From Chalciporus piperatus (taxonomy: Eukaryota; Basidiomycota; Agaricomycetes; Boletales; Boletaceae): 21,143 nt of DNA. Location of the stretch: assembly GCA_038093975.1 (NCBI GenBank), contig JBBPTG010000354.1, positions 1 to 21,143 of the forward strand, given 5' to 3'. The position numbers were made by a program, and so were the translations under genes. Below, one piece after another: positions 2,014 to 15,427 of this stretch. The notes beneath the pieces are model-generated. The model was not told the origin of the DNA, did no database searches, and saw only the letters and a program-made list of their open reading frames with translations. Each line of letters opens with the position of its first letter. Within the stretch, counting starts at the first letter, position 1.

Positions 2014-2116
2014 TGTTACGAACGCTCCATTCCTTATCCTAATCATCCCTACACTCCATTACGCTTACTAGGTTTCTCTTCGTTTCGTGGACTTAGTCGT
2101 TTCACTTTCTCTTTTG

Positions 2117-2142
2117 TTATCTTATCTTATCGCATCACGTGA
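2117..2142 (+). promoter_or_regulatory. GATA triplet and E-box in the E2 LTR
   Basis: Three TTATC (GATAA on the minus strand) repeats with a 5-bp period occupy 2117-2131. They are followed by the palindrome TCACGTGA at 2135-2142. GATAA is the core site of AreA/Nit2-type nitrogen regulators, and CACGTG binds bHLH factors. Both are kept in the other LTR copies. Function is inferred only. Confidence 0.4.
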
Positions 2143-2184
2143 CTTACTTACATAAGCTAGGTCTAGACCTTCGCTTACTAACTG

Positions 2185-2298
2185 ATGACTCATCGCTTAC
2201 TCGTCAGCATCAGTCAGCATTACTCATCATATGACTCACGCTTACTCATTCCGCAGTAGAGCTAGTTACGCCATTGGCTAGTAGTCAGTATGAGTCAT
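2185..2298 (+). promoter_or_regulatory. Three Gcn4/CpcA-type sites in the E2 LTR
   Basis: Perfect RTGACTCAY matches occur at 2185-2193 (ATGACTCAT), 2231-2239 (ATGACTCAC) and 2290-2298 (reverse strand). All three survive in the solo LTR and the E3 LTR. Fungal bZIP activators of the amino-acid starvation response bind this sequence. Confidence 0.5.
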
Positions 2299-2352
2299 AC
2301 CCAGTCACCTACGATAAGGTTTAGCCACAACATGTACAAACATTGACAATAG

Positions 2353-2360
2353 TATATAAA
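2353..2360 (+). promoter_or_regulatory. TATA box of the E2 promoter
   Basis: TATATAAA lies 35 bp upstream of the predicted transcript start at 2388. Spacing and sequence are identical in E3 (15081-15088, minus strand) and in the solo LTR. Confidence 0.75.
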
Positions 2361-2387
2361 CCCGGGTCAACAAGCACTGGACTCCCC

Positions 2388-2398
2388 AGTCTTGTTCT
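2388..2398 (+). other. Predicted self-primer: first 11 nt of the E2 transcript
   Basis: AGTCTTGTTCT is the exact reverse complement of the 11 nt at 2492-2502 behind the LTR. Its position, 35 bp below TATA, fits a transcription start. In Tf1 the first 11 nt of the mRNA fold back, pair with the primer site and are cleaved to prime minus-strand synthesis. Confidence 0.75.
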
Positions 2399-2491
2399 CC
2401 TGGAGTTTCCTCATCGAACCTCAGCCAAGTTCATCGGCTCGCTATTGTCTAGTGTGAGTCTTAGCTCTTAGTTGAGTTGAGTCGTTTCATT

Positions 2492-2502
2492 AGAACAAGA
2501 CT
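2492..2502 (+). other. Primer binding site for self-priming
   Basis: AGAACAAGACT starts two bases after the LTR end (TT spacer, 2490-2491). It pairs with 2388-2398 over all 11 positions. It lacks the TGG start of most tRNA-primed sites. The same sequence and spacing occur in E3 (14939-14949). Confidence 0.8.
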
Positions 2503-2632
2503 AATATTTTCTTTTGTCTTAGCGTCTCGTCGCTACCACACGTGTCCTTGTACGCCACTTCAACCGTTGATCACTAGTGGGTACCGCGCTGCTTGTTCGC
2601 GCCTTGTCATCGCTGACCTTGTTTTTGAATAA

Positions 2633-3598
2633 GTGTCGAGCAACCCCGCCGCATCTCAGCGCGCCGCGTCCCCTGTACCTTCCATCCAGTGGAACGGTAT
2701 ACTTGATCTCCCCGCCGTCGAGAACAACCTCGACTTCACCAGCGTCATCAGAAACCTCGAACGAGCTGCAGAGGTCTATCCCGGCTTCACCAGCATCATC
2801 GACGACCTCGAACGAGAGAACGCTCGTGTCCAGGAAGACTACGCTCGTACTCAGGCGTTACACGCTGAGAGACAAAGGGAGACCATCGAGAAGTACTCAG
2901 TGCCGATAGTCCCAGAGCCAGACTATTCGGATCTCTACGTTGATTGGTTGGAACCTCCGGTAATTCCCTCTTACCCACACCATCTTCCATCTGAGGTTTA
3001 CATTCACCCTCTCGGTACCCTTCGGTTACCTCATCATCCCGCCAATCTCCAGATCGGTACTCGTCGACTTCCGTCACTCCCTCCCATCGAGGCTATTCGG
3101 GCACCGTTGCCACCCAACCCCCAGCAGATACTAGCCGACGCCTTCGGCGTTGAAGAGTTATACTACCGTGCCTCCTCCATCCCCAGAGCCCCAACCCCGC
3201 TCGCTGAGCCCGTCGATTGGACAGGCATCGACGAGGATATTTCTGCTCTTCAACACAAATTTCCCATTGGAGTCTCTGGTCGTACGGAAAGTTTCCGCCG
3301 CGCTCTCTATCACACGCTTATATCCCCGGCAGGTGAGAAGGCGATTCGAGAGAACATTGACGATCGGGTACGTCAACGCCGACGAAGCGACAGGTTACTT
3401 AGAGGTATCCCTGAGGACGCCGGTACTCGTATTAAGAAGAGAGTATCAACCCCGCGTCCTACTCGGCGCACTCGCTGCCATAAGCCTCTCGTCCCTCTTA
3501 GGAAGATCCGCCCAGCACAGCTTACAGGCCTTCCTGCTACTTTTATACCTCATCTTCGGCCACGTAATTCTCTCAGACGACCTTCGCGTTACCTTTGA
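2633..3598 (+). CDS. E2 leader ORF 1: 321 residues without any ATG
   Basis: The frame opens right after a TAA (2630-2632), starts at a GTG and contains no methionine codon. The protein has a near repeat FTSVIRNLER / FTSIIDDLER (about residues 36-65), then charged coiled-coil-like sequence. A Pro-rich middle follows, and the C-terminus from about residue 245 is Arg-rich. E3 has the same ORF (323 residues, one extra Pro-Ser step). Translation would need a near-cognate start or reinitiation. The last 449 nt overlap leader ORF 2 in the next frame. A candidate intron (3333-3393, GTGAGA...ACAG) would join the first ~233 residues in frame to ORF 2. No family is recognised. A capsid-associated or matrix-like role is possible but unsupported. 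Confidence 0.5.
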   Translation: MSSNPAASQRAASPVPSIQWNGILDLPAVENNLDFTSVIRNLERAAEVYPGFTSIIDDLERENARVQEDYARTQALHAERQRETIEKYSVPIVPEPDYSDLYVDWLEPPVIPSYPHHLPSEVYIHPLGTLRLPHHPANLQIGTRRLPSLPPIEAIRAPLPPNPQQILADAFGVEELYYRASSIPRAPTPLAEPVDWTGIDEDISALQHKFPIGVSGRTESFRRALYHTLISPAGEKAIRENIDDRVRQRRRSDRLLRGIPEDAGTRIKKRVSTPRPTRRTRCHKPLVPLRKIRPAQLTGLPATFIPHLRPRNSLRRPSRYL

Positions 3599-3890
3599 CT
3601 TCGCCTATATTCTAGTATCGCACAGAAATCGTCCGATAGCACCACCTACTCCTCCCCTTTCTCCTGTTGTATCACAAGCAGAATTAGAAGAAGATAGAGA
3701 ATCGGTACCAGGATTAGTAGAGTCTGACAGTGAAGACGAAGGAGGACTAAGAGAGACAAACGCACCAGGAGTGCAACTGTACTATCCCGCGCCTCATTCC
3801 ATCAGAAGAAGCATTCCACCGCCACCTTATCAAAGAGACGCCCCTGCTTCGTTATCAGGAGAAACCCTTGAAGGATCTCAGGAGATCTGA
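3150..3890 (+). CDS. E2 leader ORF 2: membrane-segment and PPPY-containing frame without ATG
   Basis: The open frame ends 43 nt before gag and contains no ATG (a TTG at 3150 is the first near-cognate). The part likely to be real starts near 3394, where a candidate spliced junction would enter from ORF 1. It holds hydrophobic stretches (for example LQAFLLLLYLIFGHVIL, ~3515-3570) and an acidic Ser/Glu/Asp patch (SDSEDEGG). Near the end is SIPPPPYQ, which contains a PPxY motif; PPxY motifs recruit Nedd4-type ubiquitin ligases and act as budding late domains in some viruses. The E3 copy differs at many residues in the hydrophobic part yet stays hydrophobic and open. I infer a membrane-associated product, but its expression is unproven. 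Confidence 0.45.
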   Translation: MKSYTTVPPPSPEPQPRSLSPSIGQASTRIFLLFNTNFPLESLVVRKVSAALSITRLYPRQVRRRFERTLTIGYVNADEATGYLEVSLRTPVLVLRREYQPRVLLGALAAISLSSLLGRSAQHSLQAFLLLLYLIFGHVILSDDLRVTFDFAYILVSHRNRPIAPPTPPLSPVVSQAELEEDRESVPGLVESDSEDEGGLRETNAPGVQLYYPAPHSIRRSIPPPPYQRDAPASLSGETLEGSQEI

Positions 3891-3933
3891 AATAAAAATC
3901 TAGTTTTTCCCTTTCCATTCTAGTGCATCAAAA

Positions 3934-5127
3934 ATGTCGGTTCTCGCCCCAGACTTAGCAGCTGCCTTAACAGGCATTCTCGGACATCGTGACGCGTCCA
4001 TACGGGATCTTGGAACGCAGTTGAGACTCGCGTTAGAAGACATGACGGATCAGATTACCAACGCTCAAAGGGTAAACCAAAACCTAAACAATAATATCTT
4101 GCAGCTCGAAGCGCAAGTACAAGCCATAGTGCCTGGTGCAATACTAGCCCCTACGGTCGGGCCTAGCGGACCTAAGTTATCCAAAATCGTCAAAGATCCA
4201 GGAGATTATGACGGATCTAGAGGAAAGAAGTTCGAAGAATGGTGGACAAGAGTCCGCGCATGGCTAGATGAAAACAACACCGTGTTAACCGGAATGACGG
4301 CGATCAGAGCTATCCTTAGTCGAATGACAGGAGGAGACGCCGCTACTTTCTCACGAGCCATGACACATGACATCTTGGAAAATGGAACCACGTATACTTC
4401 CGCCGAGTTTCATAAACGAATCACCGATCAATTCCGCTCGGGTAACGAAGTGGAATACCACCGCAATCAGATCAAGAATCTGAAACAAGGCAAGATGTCT
4501 ATGGAGAAATTCCTTACCACATTCCAGACTCATCGCCTTATGGACGATTGGAACGATGCGCGACACATCGAACTTCTAGAACTAAACGCAGATCCAGAGA
4601 TCACACATCGGATCTTAATGGAAAAAGGACGACTCGACAAATATGACACATATGTCGAAGAACTACGCCTCCTTGCAGGAAGGAAACAGCTTATCTCCAT
4701 GATCAAGACAGGAACCGCAGGTGATACCCCGCGATATAAATATACCAACACGGGCACACAACCGGGTCGTGGTGCCCCAATGGATATAGGTTCTGCCGAG
4801 ATTGAAGAAGGCGAGATAGAAGAAGAAGAAGCACCATCTGCCGTGAAGGCGGCCACAAGCAATTTCAAAGAAAAGAAACAAGGAAATTGTTGGAACTGTG
4901 GGAAACCGGGACATCCGAAACAGCAATGTCCGGTACCTAGTACCAAATGCAAGGGCTGTGGTTGGTCAAGAGGCGAACACAAACGTGCCTGTAAACTTCA
5001 GAAGAGACAGGTAAGAGAACTGTCTACTGAATCTAACCCTCTTGAAGGCCGTTCATTCGACGAAATGAAGGCTTACTTCTACGATATGAAAGATATCGAA
5101 ATGAAGGGAAAAGGCAAAGCGGCCTGA
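3934..5127 (+). CDS. gag: E2 Gag with two zinc knuckles
   Basis: 397 residues from the first ATG of the predicted transcript, in a good context (AAAAATGT). The N-terminus (about 1-70) is coiled-coil-like. Next comes a typical Ty3/gypsy capsid region with KFEEWWTRVRAWL, followed by QFRSGNEVEYHRNQIKNLKQG around the middle. An acidic linker (EEGEIEEEEA) precedes the nucleocapsid. The knuckles are CX2CX4HX4C at C319, C322, H327 and C332, then CX2CX6HX3C at C339, C342, H349 and C353. Gag forms the particle and binds the genomic RNA. The last codons contain a -1 slippery heptamer, so Pol is expected as a Gag-Pol fusion. The ORF is intact here, unlike in E3. Confidence 0.9.
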   Translation: MSVLAPDLAAALTGILGHRDASIRDLGTQLRLALEDMTDQITNAQRVNQNLNNNILQLEAQVQAIVPGAILAPTVGPSGPKLSKIVKDPGDYDGSRGKKFEEWWTRVRAWLDENNTVLTGMTAIRAILSRMTGGDAATFSRAMTHDILENGTTYTSAEFHKRITDQFRSGNEVEYHRNQIKNLKQGKMSMEKFLTTFQTHRLMDDWNDARHIELLELNADPEITHRILMEKGRLDKYDTYVEELRLLAGRKQLISMIKTGTAGDTPRYKYTNTGTQPGRGAPMDIGSAEIEEGEIEEEEAPSAVKAATSNFKEKKQGNCWNCGKPGHPKQQCPVPSTKCKGCGWSRGEHKRACKLQKRQVRELSTESNPLEGRSFDEMKAYFYDMKDIEMKGKGKAA

Positions 5128-5149
5128 ATGATCTGGGCAAACGGACCGC
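5106..5149 (+). promoter_or_regulatory. Predicted -1 ribosomal frameshift signal between gag and pol
   Basis: GGGAAAA at 5106-5112 fits X_XXY_YYZ in the gag frame (G GGA AAA). After a 6-nt spacer, GCGGCC (5119-5124) can pair with GGACCGC (5143-5149), with one bulged A and an 18-nt loop that contains the gag stop. The pol frame is open from 5046. Both parts are identical in E3. Confidence 0.6.
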
Positions 5150-7422
5150 AACTAACTCGTTAGGAAAATCTGTAAACTATCCACACAGTCAAACGGGGTC
5201 TCATGTTGATCATGAGCTTGGCCTGGACTCTAGTCAGGTGCTTAATTCCGTTTCCATAATCCGATATCTTTCCGAAAACCCAGGACCACGTTTCATTCGC
5301 ACGACAGATCGAGAATTGAAGCTATCTACTTCCATCGCTTCGCAACGCCTCCCTTCTGCTTTCACACGAGCAGAGGCACTTCTTGATTCAGGAGCTAACG
5401 CTATCTTCGTTGATCGGAGATGGATTGACAAAATCAAACTACCCCTCGTGCAACTCAGACATCCACTTACGGTATACAACGTGGACGGAACACATAACTC
5501 CGCTGGACAGATAACACACTGTGCGGAAATCATTATTCATTTCAACGGACATCGTGAGAAGGCCATTGCAGAAGTCACTGATCTCGGAAAGAATCAGGTG
5601 ATATTAGGATACGCATGGCTGAAGCAACACAATCCGGAGATAGATTGGAACAAAGGAACGGTCCACATGACACGTTGTCCTTGGTCTTGTTCCGTCTTAC
5701 GAGATAAACCACCGTTCGCACGTCAACTTGATGATGAAGAACGAAATTCCCTTCGGCACATCAACGCCGCAAAGAAGGATGCACCTGAACCGAAAACGGA
5801 AAAGATCCCGGAAGAACTTGTGCCAAAAGAATACCACAAGTATATTCACCTGTTCAAGAAGAAGGAATCTGAACGCATGCCAACCCGTAAGCCGTGGGAT
5901 CATGCAATTGACTTGAAAGACACTTACAAGCCGAAAAAGGGTCGTCTCATCCCACTCTCTGTCACGGAACAAGAAGAAGTCAGCGCATTCATTGATGATC
6001 AGCTCAAGAAAGGATACATTCGTCCTTCCAAATCTGAGCAGACTTCTCCCGTGTTCTTCGTTCCTAAGAAAGATGGCAAGAAACGCATGGTTCAAGATTA
6101 CCGTTATCTGAATGAACACACGGTGAAAAACAATTATCCGCTACCCCTCATTTCCCAATTGGTTGATAAACTGAAAGGCGCAAAACTGTTTACCAAAATG
6201 GACTTGCGTTGGGGATACAACAACATCCGCATCAAAGAAGGCGATGAATCTAAAGCCGCATTCGTATGCTTCCGTGGCGCCTTCGAACCCTTGGTAATGT
6301 ACTTCGGATTATGCAATTCTCCTGCAACATTCCAAACTATGATGAACGACATCTTCTCGGATGTGGAAGACGCCGTTGTTGTCTACATTGATGACATCAT
6401 GATCTTTACCAAATCCGACGACCCTGCTGTCCATGCCAAAATAGTCAGAGAAGTTCTTCGTCGCCTAGAAGAAAATGACCTTTTCGTCAAACCAGAGAAA
6501 TGTGTCTTCCATACCAAAGAAGTAGAATTCTTGGGAATGACAATTACTCCCGAGGGAATCAGGATGGACGACGATAAGGTCAAGGCGATTACCGAATGGC
6601 CAACTCCGACAAATGTCAGAGGTGTCAGAAGCTTTCTCGGATTAGCAAATTTCTATCGTCGCTTCATTCAGGATTACGCTCAAGTGGCTAGACCCTTGAA
6701 TGACCTTACCAAGAAGGATGTGAAATTCGTATGGGAAGAAGCGCAGAGGAACACCTTCAACACATTGAAACAGAAGTTCATCACTGCTCCCATACTCGCT
6801 TTCCCAGACAATAACAAACGCTTCCGTCTAGAATCGGATGCATCTAATTATGCCACGGGTGCTGTTCTATCTATAGAACAAGGAGACAAATGGCATCCCG
6901 TCGCGTTCTCTTCCCACTCCATGTCACCGGAAGAACGCAACTATCCCATCGTGGATAAAGAGATGCTAAGCGTTATCAGAAGTCTAGAACAATGGAGGCA
7001 TTATCTGGAAGGTTCCAAGCACGAGTTTGAAATCTGGAATGATCACGCGAACCTTCAGTTCTTCATGACTCGGCAAGATCTAAATCGTCGCCAAGCACGT
7101 TGGTCTCAATATCTTAGCCGATTCAATTTCAAATGGTTACACAAGGCAGGTTCCCAAATGGGAAAAGCCGATGCCTTATCAAGAAGAGAAGATCACGCAA
7201 TCGGTATCGAAGCAGATAACAAAGCTGTCCTTGTAATACCTCCGGACAGAATAGCTGCCACGTCAACTGTTCAACTCTCAACCGATTCCGATCTAATCAA
7301 GAACAAAATCAGAAAAGCAACCTTCAAAATACGCGAGACAGAAGTCATGAGACTCTGTAAAGAACACGGCATTTGTGAAGAATCTGATGGAATCCTGATT
7401 GACAAGAAAGGAAGGCTGTACG
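5112..7422 (+). CDS. pol: E2 Pol, first part: protease, reverse transcriptase, RNase H (interrupted)
   Basis: The start is set at the predicted frameshift. The frame is open upstream of the GTG at 5238 without an ATG, which supports a Gag-Pol fusion. Counting from 5238, the protease motif LLDSGAN has its catalytic Asp at 50. Reverse transcriptase shows KKDGKKRMVQDYRYLN and the catalytic YIDD at 383-386. RNase H follows, with its first catalytic Asp at 534 (RLESDAS), the Glu in DKEML and the Asp in NDHAN. The reading frame runs into a solo LTR at 7423 and stops at 7449-7451. Because the LTR plus one duplication is exactly 480 bp, the two halves of pol are still in the same phase, but the stop inside the LTR ends translation. 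The enzyme set copies the RNA into DNA inside the particle. Confidence 0.93.
7418..7422. repeat. Target-site duplication of the solo LTR (GTACG), left copy
   Basis: GTACG flanks the solo LTR on both sides (7418-7422 and 7898-7902), showing an integration rather than a rearrangement. Confidence 0.95.
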
Positions 7423-7897
7423 TGTTACGAACGCTCCATTCCTTATCCTAATCATCCCTACATTCCATTACGCTTACTAGGTTTCTCTTCGTTTCTTGGA
7501 CTTAGTCGTTTCACTTTCTCTTTTGTTATCTTATCTTATCGTGTCACGTGACTTACTTACATAAGCTAGGTCTAGACCTTCGCTTACTACTGATGACTCA
7601 CCGCTCACTCGTCAGCATCAGTCAGCATTACTCATCATATGACTCACGCTTACTCATTCCGCAGTAGAGTTAGTTACGCCATTGGCTAGTAGTCAGTATG
7701 AGTCATACCCAGTCACTTACGATAAGGTTTAACCACAACATGTACAAACATTGACAATAGTATATAAACCCGGGTCAACAAGCACTGGACTCCCCAGTCT
7801 TGTTCTCCTGGAGTTTCCTCATCGAACCTCAGCCAAGTTCATCGGCTCGCCATTGTCTAGTGTGAGTCTTAGCTCTTAGTTGAGTTGAGTCGTTTCA
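7423..7897 (+). mobile_element. Solo LTR of the E2/E3 family inside E2 pol
   Basis: 475 bp, same orientation as E2, beginning TGTTACG and ending TTTCA. It carries all LTR motifs: three Gcn4-type sites, TATA, and the AGTCTTGTTCT start at 7796-7806. It differs from the E2 LTRs at roughly ten positions, including a 1-bp deletion, so it came from another copy of the family. A full element presumably inserted between the RNase H and integrase regions and then lost its inside by LTR-LTR recombination. It breaks Pol and brings a promoter that could transcribe the integrase half. Confidence 0.95.
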
Positions 7898-7902
7898 GTA
7901 CG

Positions 7903-9320
7903 TTCCTGAAGAAGAAGAACTCCGCATGGAGATTATTCGACTTCATCACGACACGCCCGTTGCTGGACATCCCGGATATGAAAAGACAATCGAACTGCTA
8001 CAGCGCAGCTACGCTTGGCCAGGAATGGCTACGCTCGTAAAAGACTATGTCTCACGCTGTGACAGATGTGCACGTTTCAAAGGGATAAACTACGCTCCTT
8101 CCGGAAAGCTCTGCCCCCTTGAAGTTCCAGATCTTCCCTGGGAACATATCTCTGCAGATTTCACTACCGATCTGCCACTCTCGAATGGATTCGATTCTAT
8201 TCTTGTCGTTGTTGACAGATTCTCCAAAGAAGTCGAATTCATTCCCTGCAACAAGACGGTCACCGCTCTCGACACCGCCCGTCTTTACCTAACCCATGTA
8301 TGGAAACATCATGGACTTCCTAAAACCATCATATCGGACCGAGGTCCGCAATTCGCATCTCAAGTGATGAAAGACATATGCAAACGTCTTGGCATTACGC
8401 CCAAACTCTCCACCGCCTTTCATCCACAGACTGATGGACAAACTGAACGTATGAATCGAGATCTACAACAGTATCTCCGCCTATTCACGTCAGAAAAACA
8501 AGAAGAATGGACTGATTGGTTACCAATTGCGCAATTCTCATACAACTCGAAAAAGCAAGCTTCTACATCTAAGGCACCTTTCAACGTCACACACACATAT
8601 TCTCCAAGGATGGGAATAGAGAATTACACGTCTAAAGCGCCTGCTGCAACGGACTTTGTTGACACGCTTGCCAACACGTTGAAAGAAACCAAGGATAACA
8701 TAATAGAAGCTCAGAAGCATATGAAAGCGCAGGCCGACAAACACCGTTCTGAATCACCATCTTACGAAATTGGTCAGAAAGTCTGGTTGTCTACAGCTAA
8801 TCTCCGCCTGGCGCAGAGATCTAAGAAACTTTCCCCACGATGGTTGGGCCCTTACGAAATCACAACCTTGATTGGACGGAACGCACTACGTCTGAAGCTT
8901 CCGCGTACCATGAAAATTCACCCCGTCGTTAATATTTCACGTGTCAAACCATATAAGGACAGGTTACGGAAGCAAACCGTTGACAAGCCTGGGCCTGTGA
9001 TTGTGACAGAAGACAGAGATGATGAATATGAGGTGGATTATATCGTTGATTCTCGTTTACAGGGAAAAACCCTGAAATACCTTGTGCACTGGAAAGGCTA
9101 TGCGGAATCTGATCGGACATGGGAACCACGATCGAATCTCAAGAATGCACAGGATGCAATACGGGAATTCAACAAGATACATCCGTCCGCTCCACGATTC
9201 CTTCGCATGTCACGGAGTCTATTCGAGTCACTGTTCCAGCCGTATGACAACTTAACGAGTCAGGTGGATGATGGACAAATCAATTGGTTGAATACCGTGC
9301 CGGATACCGAAAAGGTATAA
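7903..9320 (+). CDS. pol: E2 Pol, second part: integrase with chromodomain (separated by solo LTR)
   Basis: The native sequence resumes at 7903. The first ATG is at 7926, used here for numbering. The HHCC zinc-binding region (LHHDTPVAGH, then CDRC) is followed by the catalytic triad D78 (SADFTTDL), D138 (ISDRGPQF) and E174 (DGQTERMN), a D-X59-D-X35-E spacing. Next come the GPY/F module (RWLGPYEI) and the conserved IHPVVNISRVKPY. A chromodomain lies at about 368-422 (YEVDYIVDS, then YLVHWKGY, then TWEPRSNL). The protein inserts the DNA copy and probably reads chromatin marks. It is cut off from its N-terminal Pol partners by the solo LTR, so this copy cannot make a full polyprotein, although it could be expressed from the solo LTR promoter. 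Confidence 0.93.
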
Positions 9321-9383: not shown

Positions 9384-9950
9384 ATGGATCTCAACGATGT
9401 CTACGCTTGGGAGAGTGTCCTCCGCGACATCTTCATTCGGAACTTCACTAGGGATCGAGGCAACTTCGTCCTCTCCCTCCTCTTTATACTCTTCGTCATC
9501 TGCAACGGCTGGATCCTCCGCATGCTCATCCCCTCCTTCCTCGCTTTCTTCGCCATTGTCGTCGTCACCATCGCCATTCAATATCTCATGTTCGCTCGGA
9601 TGATCGTGACCAGACGATCCACGTCTATCGAGGTTAACTGGGACTGGACGACAAGGTGGATGAAGCTCGTCGTATGGCACCCGGATCTGAGCAAGTGGGA
9701 CAACGTGATAGAGGTACAACAGGAGAATCCTGATCAGCAAGAATGGCCCACAAATTGGCCTGATCTCGCTCAACCTCCTATTCCCGACCCTGCACTCGTA
9801 GGTGCTCCCCACCCTATCCCTGTCGATGAAAACGATGGTAACCCATTCGAACCACCAGTAACTTGGACAAACAACAACCTTCAGGTTGCTACTGCTCCGC
9901 CAGCAAATGGAGTACCGTGGATGAATCAAGGTCCACTCGTCGAAGTCTGA
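9384..9950 (+). CDS. E2 third ORF: 188-residue two-helix membrane protein
   Basis: This ATG-initiated ORF (strong context CACCAATGG) lies 63 nt after pol and 34 nt before the 3' LTR. A short amphipathic N-terminus leads into two hydrophobic segments, about residues 28-45 (FVLSLLFILFVICNGWIL) and 48-70. They form a hairpin closed by positive charges (RMIVTRR). The remaining ~110 residues are Trp/Pro-rich and look soluble. There is no signal-peptide cleavage motif and no Cys pattern of known envelope proteins, so the position is env-like but homology is not shown. Expression would need a subgenomic or spliced RNA, or an internal promoter. Whether E3 had it cannot be seen. No family is recognised. 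Confidence 0.65.
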   Translation: MDLNDVYAWESVLRDIFIRNFTRDRGNFVLSLLFILFVICNGWILRMLIPSFLAFFAIVVVTIAIQYLMFARMIVTRRSTSIEVNWDWTTRWMKLVVWHPDLSKWDNVIEVQQENPDQQEWPTNWPDLAQPPIPDPALVGAPHPIPVDENDGNPFEPPVTWTNNNLQVATAPPANGVPWMNQGPLVEV

Positions 9951-9984: not shown

Positions 9985-10460
9985 TGTTACGAACGCTCCA
10001 TTCCTTATCCTAATCATCCCTACATTCCATTACGCTTACTAGGTTTCTCTTCGTTTCGTGGACTTAATCGTTTCACTTTCTCTTTTGTTATCTTATCTTA
10101 TCGCATCACGTGACTTACTTACATAAGCTAGGTCTAGACCTTCGCTTACTAACTGATGACTCATCGCTTACTCGTCAGCATCAGTCAGCATTACTCATCA
10201 TATGACTCACGCTTACTCATTCCGCAGTAGAGCTAGTTACGCCATTGGCTAGTAGTCAGTATGAGTCATACCCAGTCACCTACGATAAGGTTTAGCCACA
10301 ACATGTACAAACATTGACAATAGTATATAAACCCGGGTCAACAAGCACTGGACTCCCCAGTCTTGTTCTCCTGGAGTTTCCTCATCGAACCTCAGCCAAG
10401 TTCATCGGCTCGCTATTGTCTATTGTGAGTCTTAGCTCTTAGTTGAGTTGAGTCGTTTCA
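9985..10460 (+). repeat. E2 3' LTR (476 bp)
   Basis: It is a direct repeat of 2014-2489 with three mismatches and no indel by my alignment. It carries the same TATA, start, Gcn4-type and GATA motifs. Confidence 0.97.
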
Positions 10461-10465
10461 CCCTT
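10461..10465. repeat. Target-site duplication of E2, right copy (CCCTT)
   Basis: Matches 2009-2013. The E1 LTR continues directly after it. Confidence 0.95.
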
Positions 10466-10520
10466 GTCCTTGACTAGGCTTTTACGTCTACGCTTTGACC
10501 TACCCGGTACAAGCGTAACA
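10466..10520 (+). repeat. E1 3' LTR, right part
   Basis: 55 bp ending CGTAACA, the inverted match of the E1 LTR start TGTTACG at 1598. It is immediately followed by E3 pol sequence (TAGAG at 10521-10525 is the expected E1 target duplication, whose partner lies left of the window). Confidence 0.88.
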
Positions 10521-12336
10521 TAGAGTGGGAAGAGAATGCGATGGGATGCCATTTGTCTCCTTGTTCTATAGATAGAACAGCACCCGTGGCGTAATTAGAT
10601 GCATCCGATTCTAGACGGAAGCGTTTGTCATTGTCTGGGAAAGCGACTCGGAGTATGGGAGCAGTGATGAACTTCTGTTTCAATGTGTTGAAGGCGTTCC
10701 TCTGCGCATCTTCCCACGCGAATTTCACATCCTTCTTGGTAAGGTCATTCAAGGGTCTAGCCACTTGAGCGTAGTCTTGAATGAAACGGCGATAGAAGTT
10801 TGCTAACCCAAGAAAGCTTCTGACACCTCTAACATTTGTCGGAGTTGGCCATTCGGTGATTGCCTTGACCTTATCGTCGTCCATCCTGATTCCCTCGGGA
10901 GTAATTGTCATTCCCAAGAATTCTACTTCTTTGGTGTGGAAGACACATTTCTCTGGTTTGACAAAGAGGTCATTCTCTTCTAGGCGACGAAGAACTTCTC
11001 TGACTATTTTGGCATGGACAGCAGGGTCGTCGGATTTGGTAAAGATCATGATGTCATCAATGTAGACAACAACGGCGTCTTCCACATCCGAGAAGATGTC
11101 GTTCATCATAGTTTGGAATGTTGCAGGAGAATTGCATAATCCGAAGTACATTACCAAGGGTTCGAAGGCGCCACGGAAGCATACGAATGCGGCTTTAGAT
11201 TCATCGCCTTCTTTGATGCGGATGTTGTTGTATCCCCAACGCAAGTCCATTTTGGTAAACAGTTTTGCGCCTTTCAGTTTATCAACCAATTGGGAAATGA
11301 GGGGTAGCGGATAATTGTTTTTCACCGTGTGTTCATTCAGATAACGGTAATCTTGAACCATGCGTTTCTTGCCATCTTTCTTAGGAACGAAGAACACGGG
11401 AGAAGTCTGCTCAGATTTGGAAGGACGAATGTATCCTTTCTTGAGCTGATCATCAATGAATGCGCTGACTTCTTCTTGTTCCGTGACAGAGAGTGGGATG
11501 AGACGACCCTTTTTCGGCTTGTAAGTGTCTTTCAAGTCAATTGCATGATCCCACGGCTTACGGGTTGGCATGCGTTCAGATTCCTTCTTCTTGAACAGGT
11601 GAATATACTTGTGGTATTCTTTTGGCACAAGTTCTTCCGGGATCTTTTCCATTTTCGGTTCAGGTGCATCCTTCTTTGCGGCGTTGATGTGCCGAAGGGA
11701 ATTTCGTTCTTCATCATCAAGTTGACGTGCGAACGGTGGTTTATCTCGTAAGACGGAACAAGACCAAGGACAACGTGTCATGTGGACCGTTCCTTTGTTC
11801 CAATCTATCTCCGGATTGTGTTGCTTCAGCCATGCGTATCCTAATATCACCTGATTCTTTCCGAGATCAGTGACTTCTGCAATGGCCTTCTCACGATGTC
11901 CGTTGAAATGAATAATGATTTCCGCACAGTGTGTTATCTGTCCAGCGGAGTTATGTGTTCCGTCCACGTTGTATACCGTAAGTGGATGTCTGAGTTGCAC
12001 GAGGGGTAGTTTGATTTTGTCAATCCATCTCCGATCAACGAAGATAGCGTTAGCTCCTGAATCAAGAAGTGCCTCTGCTCGTGTGAAAGCAGAAGGGAGG
12101 CGTTGCGAAGCGATGGAAGTAGATAGCTTCAATTCTCGATCTGTCGTGCGAATGAAACGTGGTCCTGGGTTTTCGGAAAGATATCGGATTATGGAAACGG
12201 AATTAAGCACCTGACTAGAGTCCAGGCCAAGCTCATGATCAACATGAGACCCCGTTTGACTGTGTGGATAGTTTACAGATTTTCCTAACGAGTTAGTTGC
12301 GGTCCGTTTGCCCAGATCATTCAGGCCGCTTTGCCT
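10521..12336 (-). CDS. pol: E3 Pol, N-terminal part: protease, reverse transcriptase, start of RNase H (truncated by E1)
   Basis: It is collinear with E2 Pol, with only a handful of residue differences. The same DSG protease site, YIDD reverse transcriptase site and the first RNase H Asp are present. An in-frame 6-bp insertion (CGAGTC) adds Arg-Val just before the RNase H domain. The frame stays open to FSSHSM, where E1 LTR sequence begins. Translation then reads through the E1/LTR junction to a stop at 10474. The -1 slippery heptamer is conserved at 12336-12342. The product would lack most of RNase H and all of integrase. Confidence 0.9.
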
Positions 12337-13503
12337 TTTCCCTTCATTTCGATATCTTTCATATCGTAGAAGTAAGCCTTCATTTCGTCGAATGAACGGC
12401 CTTCAAGAGGGTTAGATTCAGTAGACAGTTCTCTTACCTGTCTCTTCTGAAGTTTACAGGCACGTTTGTGTTCGCCTCTTGACCAACCACAGCCCTTGCA
12501 TTTGGTACTAGGTACCGGACATTGCTGTTTCGGATGTCCCGGTTTCCCACAGTTCCAACAATTTCCTTGTTTCTTTTCTTTGAAATTGCTTGTGGCCGCC
12601 TTCACGGCAGATGGTGCTTCTTCTTCTTCTATCTCGCCTTCTTCAATCTCGGCAGAACCTATATCCATTGGGGCACCACGACCCGGTTGTGTGCCCGTGT
12701 TGGTATATTTATATCGCGGGGTATCACCTGCGGTTCCTGTCTTGATCATGGAGATAAGCTGTTTCCTTCCTGCAAGGAGGCGTAGTTCTTCGACATATGT
12801 GTCATATTTGTCGAGTCGTCCTTTTTCCATTAAGATCCGATGTGTGATCTCTGGATCTGCGTTTAGTTCTAGAAGTTCGATGTGTCGCGCATCGTTCCAA
12901 TCGTCCATAAGGCGATGAGTCTGGAATGTGGTAAGGAATTTCTCCATAGACATCTTGCCTTGTTTCAGATTCTTGATCTGATTGCGGTGATATTCCACTT
13001 CGTTACCCGAACGGAATTGATCGGTGATACGTTTATGGAACTCGGCGGAAGTATATGTGGTTCCGTTTTCCAAGATGTCATGTGTCATGGCTCGTGAGAA
13101 AGTAGCGGCGTCTCCTCCTGTCATTCGACTAAGGATAGCTCTGATCGCCGTCATTCCGACTAACACGGTGTCGTTTTCATCTAGCCATGCGCGGACTCTT
13201 GTCCACCATTCTTCGAACTTCTTTCCTCTAGCTCCGTCATAGTCTCCTGGGTCTTTGACGATCTTGGATAACTTAGGTCCGCTAGGTCCGACCGTAGGAG
13301 CTAGTATTGCGCCAGGCACTTGGATGGCTTGTACTTGCGCTTCAAGCTGCAAGATATTATTGTTTAGATTTTGATTTAACCTTTGAGCGTTAGTAAGCTG
13401 ATCCGTCATGGTTTCTAACGCTAGTCTCAATTGCGTTCCAAGATCCCGTATGGACGCGTCACGATGTCCGAGAATGCCTGTCAAGGCGGGCGAGAACCGA
13501 CAT
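12321..13503 (-). pseudogene. gag: E3 gag, frameshifted near its start
   Basis: The ATG homologous to the E2 gag start is at 13503-13501. Fourteen bases present in E2 after codon 5 are missing, so translation from this ATG stops after 14 codons. The gag frame itself is otherwise open (a GTG lies at 13514) to the same stop as E2, and it has the same two zinc knuckles and acidic linker. From the capsid region onward it is nearly identical to E2. It also has one extra Gln codon (AIQVPG). Unless a non-AUG start or the internal ATG at codon MTDQ is used, Gag is not made. Confidence 0.8.
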
Positions 13504-13544
13504 TCTTGATGCACTAGAATGGAAGGGATAAAACTAGATTTATT

Positions 13545-14285
13545 TCAGATCTCCTGAGATCCTTCAAGGGTTTCTCCTGATAACGAAGCAGGGGTGTCTC
13601 TCTGATAAGGTGGCGGTGGAATGCTTCTTCTGATGGAATGAGGCGCGGGATAGTAAAGTTGCACTCCTGGTACGTTCGTTTCTCTTAGTCCTCCTTCTTC
13701 TTCGCTATCTGATTCTACTAATCCTGGTACCGATTCTCTGTCTTCTTCTAACTCTGCTTGTGATATAACAGGGGAAAGGGGAGGAGTAGGCGGGGTTACA
13801 ACACGGTTTCTGTGTGTTACAAGAATATAGGCGAAGTCAAAGGTAACGCGAAGGTCGTCTGAGAGAAGTACGTGGCCGAAGGTAAGGTACGAAAGTAGGA
13901 GGGAGACCAGTAAGCTGCGCTGCACGAATTCTCCTAAGTGGAACAAGAGGCTTAGAGCTACGAGTGCGGCGAGTAGGACGCGGGGTTGGTACTCTCTCCT
14001 TAATACGTATATCGGCGTCCTCTGGGATACCTCTAAGTAACCTGTTGCTTCGTCGGCGTTCACGTATCCGATCGTTAACGTTCTCTCGAATCGCGTTCTC
14101 ACCTGCCGGGGATATAAGCGTGTGATAGAGAGCGCGGCGGAAACTTTCCGTACGGCCAGAGATTCCAATGGGGAATTGGTGTTGAAGAGCAGAAAGATCC
14201 TCGTCAATGCCTGTCCAATCGACGGGCTCAGCGAGCGGGGTTGGGGCTCTGGGGATGGAGGAGGCACGGTAGTATAACTCTTCAA
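13545..14285 (-). CDS. E3 leader ORF 2 (246 residues, no ATG start)
   Basis: It has the same length and frame as the E2 copy. Hydrophobic segments (for example SLLVSLLLSYLTFGHVLL), the acidic patch and SIPPPPYQ are kept, although the hydrophobic stretch has about 18% nucleotide differences from E2 and no indel. Keeping openness, hydrophobicity and the PPPY motif through this divergence argues for a translated product. Confidence 0.42.
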   Translation of the reverse strand: MKSYTTVPPPSPEPQPRSLSPSIGQALTRIFLLFNTNSPLESLAVRKVSAALSITRLYPRQVRTRFERTLTIGYVNADEATGYLEVSQRTPIYVLRREYQPRVLLAALVALSLLFHLGEFVQRSLLVSLLLSYLTFGHVLLSDDLRVTFDFAYILVTHRNRVVTPPTPPLSPVISQAELEEDRESVPGLVESDSEEEGGLRETNVPGVQLYYPAPHSIRRSIPPPPYQRDTPASLSGETLEGSQEI

Positions 14286-14808
14286 CGCCGAAGGCGTCGG
14301 CTAGTATCTGTTGGGGGTTGGGCGGCAACGGTGCCCGAATAGCCTCGATGGGAGGGAGCGACGGAAGTCGACGAGTGCCGATCTGAAGATTGGCGGGATG
14401 ATGAGGTAACCGACTCGGAAGGGTACCGAGAGGGTGAATATAAACCTCAGAAGGTAAATGGTATGGGTAGGAGGGAATTACCGGAGGTTCTACCCAATCA
14501 ACGTAAAGATCCGAATAGTCAGGCTCTGGGACTATCGGCGTTGAGTACTTCTCAATGAGCTCCCTTTCTCTCTCAGCGTGTAACGCCTGAGTATGAGCGT
14601 AGTCTTCCTGGACACGAGCGTTCTCTCGCTCAAGGTCATCGATGATGCTGGTGAAGCCGGGATAGACCTCTACAGCTCGTTCGAGGTTTCTGATGACGCT
14701 AGTGAAGTCGAGGTTGTTCTCGACGGCGGGGAGATCAAGTATACCGTTCCACTGGATGGAAGGTACAGGGGACGCGGCGCGCTGAGATGCGGCGGGGTTG
14801 CTCGACAC
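13837..14808 (-). CDS. E3 leader ORF 1 (323 residues, no in-frame ATG)
   Basis: Homologue of the E2 leader ORF 1, opening at the same GTG after a stop. One out-of-frame ATG has arisen at 14639-14637. The candidate intron donor (GTGAGA) and acceptor (ACAG, with a second TTAG) are conserved. Differences from E2 cluster in the C-terminal Arg-rich part. Confidence 0.45.
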   Translation of the reverse strand: MSSNPAASQRAASPVPSIQWNGILDLPAVENNLDFTSVIRNLERAVEVYPGFTSIIDDLERENARVQEDYAHTQALHAERERELIEKYSTPIVPEPDYSDLYVDWVEPPVIPSYPYHLPSEVYIHPLGTLPSRLPHHPANLQIGTRRLPSLPPIEAIRAPLPPNPQQILADAFGVEELYYRASSIPRAPTPLAEPVDWTGIDEDLSALQHQFPIGISGRTESFRRALYHTLISPAGENAIRENVNDRIRERRRSNRLLRGIPEDADIRIKERVPTPRPTRRTRSSKPLVPLRRIRAAQLTGLPPTFVPYLRPRTSLRRPSRYL

Positions 14809-14938
14809 TTATTCAGAAACAAGGTCAGCGATGACAAGGCGCGAACAAGCAGCGCGGTACCCACTAGTGATCAACGGTTGAAGTGGCGTACAAGAACACG
14901 TGTGGTAGCGACGAGACGCTAAGACAAAAGAAAATATT

Positions 14939-14949
14939 AGTCTTGTTCT
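14939..14949 (-). other. E3 primer binding site for self-priming
   Basis: On the minus strand it reads AGAACAAGACT, two bases behind the LTR. It pairs exactly with the predicted transcript start at 15053-15043. Confidence 0.75.
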
Positions 14950-14951
14950 AA

Positions 14952-15427
14952 TGAAACGACTCAACTCAACTAAGAGCTAAGACTCACACTAGACAATAGC
15001 GAGCCGATGTACTTGGCTGAGGTTCGATGAGGAAACTCCAGGAGAACAAGACTGGGGAGTCCAGTGCTTGTCGACCCGGGTTTATATACTATTGTCAATG
15101 TTTGTACATGTTGTGGCTAAACCTTATCGTAGGTGACTGGGTATGACTCATACTGACTACTAGCCAATGGCGTAACTAGCTCTACTGCGGAATGAGTAAG
15201 CGTGAGTCATATGATGAGTAATGCTGACTGATGCTGACGAGTGAGCGGTGAGTCATCAGTTAGTAAGCGAAGGTCTAGACCTAGCTTATGTAAGTAAGTC
15301 ACGTGATGCGATAAGATAAGATAACAAAAGAGAAAGTGAAACGACTAAGTCCACGAGACGAAGAGAAACCTAGTAAGCGTAATGGAATGTAGGGATGATT
15401 AGGATAAGGAATGGAGCGTTCGTAACA
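14952..15427 (-). repeat. E3 5' LTR (476 bp)
   Basis: Inverted copy of the E2 LTR with about six mismatches to the E2 5' LTR. TATA (15088-15081), transcript start (15053-15043), GATA, E-box and Gcn4-type sites are all conserved. It ends at host sequence GTAAC. Confidence 0.95.

Follow-up and report, generated by a model that had tools for sequence, protein, structure and literature searches.

How are ribosomes brought to the gag gene of a retrotransposon when two long open reading frames (ORFs) fill most of the 1.5 kb in front of it, and from which codons are these ORFs started when the same 1.5 kb has no ATG in any frame? The question arises from an element lying in a stretch of 21,143 nt from the fungus Chalciporus piperatus (contig JBBPTG010000354.1 of assembly GCA_038093975.1), henceforth the window. 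A first-pass annotation of this DNA had proposed that selection keeps AUG codons out of the leader so that ribosomes scan through to the gag AUG, and that the leader proteins are made from non-AUG codons. Comparison of the element with its relatives in the same genome sustains the former proposal, while the latter is probably wrong for the first ORF, for which an AUG assembled by splicing is the best reading.

Anatomy of the Element and Its Relatives

The features of the element are collected in table 1. A transcript start at 2388 is supported by the TATA box lying upstream of it and by the complementarity of the predicted RNA 5' end to the primer-binding site, which is exact over 11/11 nt (2388-2398 against 2492-2502) and was also read in a second family and in a third relative, L056. 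Judged by this complementarity and by the order of the Pfam matches along pol (RVT_1, RT_RNaseH and rve, then Chromo), the element is a self-primed, Tf1-like chromodomain retrotransposon of the Ty3/gypsy type. Its gag matches Retrotrans_gag and a zinc knuckle, both below Pfam's cut-off. ORF3 matches no Pfam family; 76 matches to it are present in the genome when fragments are counted, and distant relatives with 29-40% identity occur elsewhere in the same genome. The window's own copy is broken, because a solo LTR with GTACG duplications sits in its pol.

Table 1. Features of the element and of its leader, in window coordinates
Feature	Position	Strand	Basis or remark
Target-site duplication CCCTT	2009-2013 and 10461-10465		Flanks the element
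5' LTR, 476 nt	2014..2489	+	Repeat table; ends read from the sequence
TATA box	2353..2360	+	Read from the sequence
Predicted RNA 5' end, AGTCTTGTTCT	2388..2398	+	Complementary to the primer-binding site; Tf1-type self-priming
Putative exon 1 (R/U5)	2388..2453	+	Bounded by the intron a donor
Putative intron a, 69 nt	2454..2522	+	GTGAGT..CTAAT..TTAG; covers both the end of the LTR and the primer-binding site
Primer-binding site, AGAACAAGACT	2492..2502	+	Sequence; directly after the LTR
Putative exon 2, 54 nt	2523..2576	+	Ends in the A that would open the created AUG
Predicted intron b, 57 nt	2577..2633	+	GTGGGT donor, CTGAC branch site, AAG acceptor
Predicted split start codon	2576 (A) and 2634-2635 (TG)	+	
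ORF1, 321 codons	2634..3598	+	Created Met included; no internal Met codon
ORF2, 251 codons stop to stop	3135..3890	+	+1 frame relative to ORF1; hydrophobic middle
gag	3934..5127	+	Its ATG is the first after 2388
pol	5127..9320 (approximate start)	+	Protease, RT, RNase H, integrase, chromodomain; the solo LTR lies within it
Solo LTR of the same family	7423..7897	+	Within pol; duplication GTACG
ORF3	9384..9950	+	Downstream of pol; long hydrophobic segment
3' LTR	9985..10460	+	
Leader of E3, the second copy in the window	13504..15053	-	One ATG

Two further elements share the window. E3 (10474-15427) lies in the opposite orientation and has an open frame that stops within the RNase H region. Positions 1-1560 apparently hold the end of another element, with a chromodomain-like end recognised by eye and then a separate ORF of 388 codons, which has a cysteine-rich, zinc-knuckle-like spacing and no Pfam match.

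The genome searched comprises 35.5 Mb in 484 contigs. The leader has at least 41 matches (40 of 145 candidates scored), and more copies were added from protein searches, giving 63 loci: 48 full-length leaders of the window family, 12 copies that are partial or strongly broken and 3 loci of the second family. This second family has a gag that is about 50% identical to that of the window family and its own leader, LTR and self-priming sequence; its near-full leaders number at least 26 (40 of 86 candidates scored), of which the sequence was read for 14. The third relative, L056, has a gag at 54%, is broken and holds an inserted piece of LTR.

Absence of ATG from the Leader

The leader of the window's element (2388-3933, 1,546 nt) has no ATG and 27 CAT. 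Base composition would predict 19.0 ATG and dinucleotides 10.9, and zero was reached in none of 5,000 first-order simulations; among the 64 triplets, ATG ranks lowest relative to expectation (z -4.0). Near-cognate triplets present no clear depletion in the leader, and the adjoining gag has a normal number of ATG, 25 vs 22 expected. The longest stretch without ATG on either strand of the window, 2332-3933 when counted from ATG to ATG, contains the leader. The absence of ATG from the plus strand and its restriction to that strand, as well as the single ATG in the leader of E3, are all as the first-pass annotation had reported them.

Within one copy, synonymous shuffles alone did not make the absence of out-of-frame ATG significant (P 0.09, 0.25 and 0.14); the case rests on the entire leader and on many copies. 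When the count is extended to the family, 37 of the 48 full-length leaders are free of ATG and 11 carry one or more, with 22 ATGs altogether, eight of which belong to the degraded copy L055, against a mean of 25.7 CAT. The second family has the same property, with 1,028 nt from the predicted start to gag lacking any ATG, and nine of the 12 leaders read are ATG-free over their first 1,015 nt (the remaining three carry one to three). L056 has 23 ATGs between its predicted RNA start and gag; being broken, with this number of ATGs, it backs the introns discussed below, not the design of a leader free of AUG.

Selection on the Leader ORFs and on New ATGs

Both leader ORFs are under purifying selection, and are thus coding. 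In the window family (L053 and L055 being left out of these and of the variant tests), the part of ORF1 lying outside the overlap has dN/dS of 0.34 between subfamilies and of 0.12 and 0.15 within them, the corresponding part of ORF2 has 0.14, and the wrong frames of the leader range from 0.88 to 2.2. Within the overlap, values between subfamilies are 0.37 for ORF1, 0.59 for ORF2 and 1.54 for the third frame. The leader ORF of the second family has 0.24 vs 1.06 and 1.22 for its other frames. The overlap of ORF1 and ORF2 extends for 464 nt and is constrained in both frames, since shared changes that are non-synonymous in both number 9 vs 19.2 expected in 3411-3598, 8 vs 13.4 in 3225-3410 and 2 vs 6.0 in 3135-3224. 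Of the 48 family copies, 43 have an intact ORF1 and 46 an intact ORF2. The previously given length of 321 codons stands for ORF1; that of 246 codons for ORF2 does not, the frame having 251 from stop to stop.

The variants segregating among the copies indicate that the absence of AUG is itself selected. Variants common to at least two copies create an ATG in 2 of 482 cases vs 18.8 expected (Poisson P 1.3e-6), one of the two, at 2900, being a case in which the ATG is actually read in one copy only, whereas singleton variants do so in 11 of 310 cases vs 12.2 expected; the two classes differ (Fisher P 0.001). When only those new triplets are compared for which more than 6 cases are expected, shared variants avoid none as strongly as ATG. 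Shared changes creating CAT are also low (17 vs 26.5 expected) and those creating TAA are low in both classes (5 vs 16.6 for singletons, 9 vs 24.1 for shared), so part of the ATG deficit may correspond to general constraint or to an imperfect expectation. The contrast between singletons and shared variants is what would be expected if AUGs arose freely after insertion and were purged when elements replicate. With the strand-specific absence in two families and the rarity with which shared variants create ATG, the scanning of ribosomes to the gag AUG, as proposed earlier, is well supported.

The leader proteins have few recognisable relatives. Neither ORF1 nor ORF2 matched a Pfam family, and ORF1 has no match at E 0.001 among 5.8 billion predicted proteins; gag found 40 relatives at 23-44% identity in the protein search, with uninformative names and context. 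Homology between the leader proteins of the two families was not detected, in a comparison weakened by shallow profiles, with effective sequence numbers of 1.1-1.2. Predicted structures were poor, with mean pLDDT of 48.5 for ORF1 and 38.7 for ORF2, and were not used for fold searches.

A separate aspect of variation concerns the two subfamilies, which among the leaders L001-L060 diverge by 21.5% in the part covered by ORF1 alone vs 7% in the overlap and ORF2, and have ORF2 variants in common. This suggests recombination between copies.

A Probable Start Codon Assembled by Splicing

How, then, is ORF1 started? When splice pairs able to create an in-frame ATG for ORF1 were enumerated, five were obtained, among them 2577-2633, where the sequence reads ...CACTA/GTGGGT ... 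CTGAC ... AATAAG/TGTCG... The removal of these 57 nt would produce ATG TCG AGC at the exact opening of ORF1, with A at -3. The signals A|GTGGGT, CTGAC and AG|TG are conserved in 48/48 copies, as is the length of 57 nt, while the base preceding the donor's A and the interior of the intron vary. The AAG acceptor of the window family is of a rarer type. Counterparts are present in both diverged relatives: the second family has A|GTGCGT, TTAAC and AG|TG in 12/12 leaders (50 nt in ten, 51 nt in two), and L056 has A|GTAGGT, CTGAC and AACAG|TG with 53 nt. A strict search (GTRNGT donor, branch site, in-frame ATG creation, 45-75 nt) returned exactly one intron per leader in the window family, the second family and L056, and with a simulated upstream part it did so in 4, 2 and 0 of 4,000 trials, respectively. 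In the flanking DNA of the window outside the elements, a pattern search also recognises candidate introns of 50-76 nt that carry these signals. Another donor considered as partner for the ORF1 acceptor, GTGTGA at 2452, was rejected because it has lost its GT in 6/48 copies.

The genome contains a probable direct footprint of such splicing, in a single copy. The second-family join, predicted beforehand, was found once, with one mismatch located away from the join, in L073. This copy differs in length from L061 by one single-base gap and by one gap corresponding exactly to the predicted 50 nt, is 99.2% identical to L062, and opens at the created ATG an ORF of 258 codons, after which the next ATG is that of gag; the unspliced leader frame of this family comprises 262 codons and ends 8 nt before the gag ATG. 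L073 is the sole case of intron loss among the 14 second-family leaders read, and the remaining 12 of the 26 span 1,028-1,029 nt, leaving no room for such a loss. The simplest reading of L073 is a retrocopied spliced RNA. The corresponding join of the window family is absent from the genome at up to three mismatches, and from the conserved signals we infer that intron b is spliced in this family too.

Upstream of intron b, a putative intron a spans the end of the LTR and the primer-binding site. Its GTGAGT (2454) and TTAG (2522) are conserved in 48/48 copies, and the classes of donor, branch site and acceptor are kept in 47/47 when L055, in which the branch site differs, is set aside; L056 has GTAAGT..TTAAC..CCCTAG at the same place, and no counterpart was seen by eye in the second family. 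Since the removal of intron a would take away the primer-binding site, an RNA spliced there could not be primed, so this intron may act as a bar to the copying of spliced RNA. Such a role would explain the lack of intron-less copies in the window family, and fits the finding of a spliced copy only in the family in which intron a was not seen. The join of intron a has no exact match in the genome, its near matches being acceptor regions or a rearranged repeat.

That repeat (L077:1-3401, with at least 30 long matches among 40 scored of 95 candidates) was considered as a carrier of the spliced join of intron a, but on inspection it turned out to be a rearranged element lying in TCGTC-rich sequence and was not counted. 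It has an LTR-like start resembling that of the window family, numerous internal repeats and pieces of leader in which exon 2 and intron b are included, and apparently constitutes a rearranged non-autonomous derivative.

A Proposed Model: One Leader and Two Alternative Messages

The observations above lead to a model in which the same leader would serve two alternative messages. In the unspliced RNA, which has no AUG before gag, scanning ribosomes would cover some 1.5 kb before meeting the gag AUG and produce Gag; selection for such scanning would clear AUGs from every frame of the leader, its genes included. When intron b is removed, the final A of exon 2 would be joined to the TG of exon 3, creating the AUG that starts ORF1. 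Splicing would thereby decide whether the transcript yields Gag or the leader protein, and the fully spliced RNA of the window family, deprived of its primer-binding site with intron a, could not be copied back. We consider this model as a whole highly probable, the scanning and the regulation by splicing within it being inferred.

The reading that had been put forward earlier, in which unspliced RNA is translated into ORF1 from a near-cognate codon, such as the GTG at 2633, and leaky scanning leads to gag as in rice tungro bacilliform virus, draws on the fact that this GTG follows directly the TAA preceding ORF1 in 48/48 copies, and on the use of near-cognate starts in fungi, for which effects of upstream AUGs through mRNA decay are described as well (PMC5487733, PMC7049704). 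Yet both GTG and TAA are accounted for by the splice acceptor AAG/TG, the context of the GTG is poor, with T at -3, and conservation extends to the donor, to the A preceding it and to the branch site, while in the genome one second-family copy has the spliced join, with ATG at the same place. A near-cognate start for ORF1 thus appears improbable, in favour of the conserved 57-nt intron that makes an AUG at its first codon.

Still less probable is the possibility that splicing removes the leader before the translation of gag, so that the missing ATGs would reflect something else. We looked for such a splice, which the first-pass annotation had named as a refuting result. In its favour are the GTGAGT at 2454, a strong donor, and an acceptor-like, pyrimidine-rich CATTCTAG lying 10 nt before the gag ATG. 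However, pattern searches found no conserved branch site before the AG of CATTCTAG, and inspection by eye found no such acceptor before the gag of the second family. Moreover, were the leader missing from the gag RNA, nothing would account for the clearing of AUG from every frame of 1.5 kb of coding sequence on one strand only.

The Start of ORF2

None of the enumerated splices gives ORF2 an AUG, so a non-AUG start, a frameshift or reinitiation must operate. The earlier claim of non-AUG starts for the leader proteins, given up for ORF1, may therefore still hold for ORF2. Splices joining ORF1 to ORF2 were also considered and rejected: the 13 combinations all depart from the donor at 3282, and both frames are constrained through the overlap. 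A reading compatible with the model of two alternative messages, and concerning ORF2 alone, is that ORF1 and ORF2 form one expression unit, ORF2 being reached by a +1 frameshift or by a near-cognate start on the spliced ORF1 message. The position of ORF2 in the +1 frame, the 464 nt shared with ORF1 under double constraint (9 vs 19.2 in 3411-3598) and the lack of an AUG from any enumerated splice speak for this reading; a known +1 slippery site was not recognised by eye, and the second family has one long leader ORF plus a shorter overlapping one in another frame, which speak against it. On balance we judge its chances to be slightly short of even.

A broader proposition would combine all these elements: three proteins (ORF1, ORF2 and Gag) would be obtained from a leader with no genomic AUG before gag, with splicing making the sole upstream AUG, ORF2 following by frameshift or non-AUG start and intron a keeping the message from being copied, and the same switch would have been kept in families with leader proteins that are not recognisably related. 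This proposition is tentative, and we are more inclined to doubt it than to accept it. If true, splicing would separate messages from genomes.

Should the model of two alternative messages be correct, it would present a route by which a compact retroelement may accommodate accessory genes upstream of gag without blocking gag: AUGs are purged, and the spliceosome assembles the missing one. Leader genes of such a kind would easily escape gene finders in which an ATG is a requirement. Moreover, the intron-less copy, the contrast between singleton and shared variants and the related families render testable the long-standing question of how the transcripts of LTR elements are divided between message and genome.

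Comparison with Known Systems

The integrase of Tf1 has a chromodomain, as has the integrase here, and to our knowledge leader genes, a leader free of AUG and leader introns are not features of Tf1. The self-priming known for Tf1 and proposed for Tj1, as described in PMC4600332, relies on an RNA 5' end complementary to the primer-binding site, as predicted for the present element.

The closest parallel for the leader itself lies in the Caulimoviridae. Scanning through AUG-free ORFs is reported as established for rice tungro bacilliform virus (RTBV) and predicted for badnaviruses (PMC5902531), which like the present element are reverse-transcribing and have leader genes without internal AUG, with about 900 nt to be scanned to their main ORF. 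Long upstream ORFs without internal AUG are found in both the window family and the second family. In contrast, the ORF I of RTBV starts at AUU, while here the comparative and genomic evidence does not point to a non-AUG start of the first ORF on unspliced RNA, and an AUG is apparently supplied by splicing; moreover, the present element is an LTR retrotransposon, with 1.0-1.5 kb free of AUG.

A donor, a branch site and an acceptor that are conserved are features that the element has in common with spliced LTR elements. BARE and copia are described as having pools of spliced and unspliced RNA with different products, the copying of spliced RNA being avoided (PMC3735527); their splicing truncates or removes pol and favours Gag, whereas here splicing would create the start codon of an upstream gene and the unspliced RNA would yield Gag. 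Drosophila gypsy expresses its env from a spliced mRNA (PMC4276936), and thus offers a case in which an extra gene of a Ty3/gypsy-type element depends on splicing, but env lies downstream of pol and not upstream of gag, and the account given in that source does not describe a start codon made by the splice.

A literature search, in which subscription journals were thinly covered, found no LTR retrotransposon with a leader gene deriving its start codon from splicing. Splice-made start codons may be possible in the env messages of insect elements. There are cellular genes, too, in which an intron splits the start codon and the start depends on splicing. What would distinguish the present element from these cellular genes is that its unspliced RNA would serve to express another gene, and that the whole leader is selected to lack AUG.
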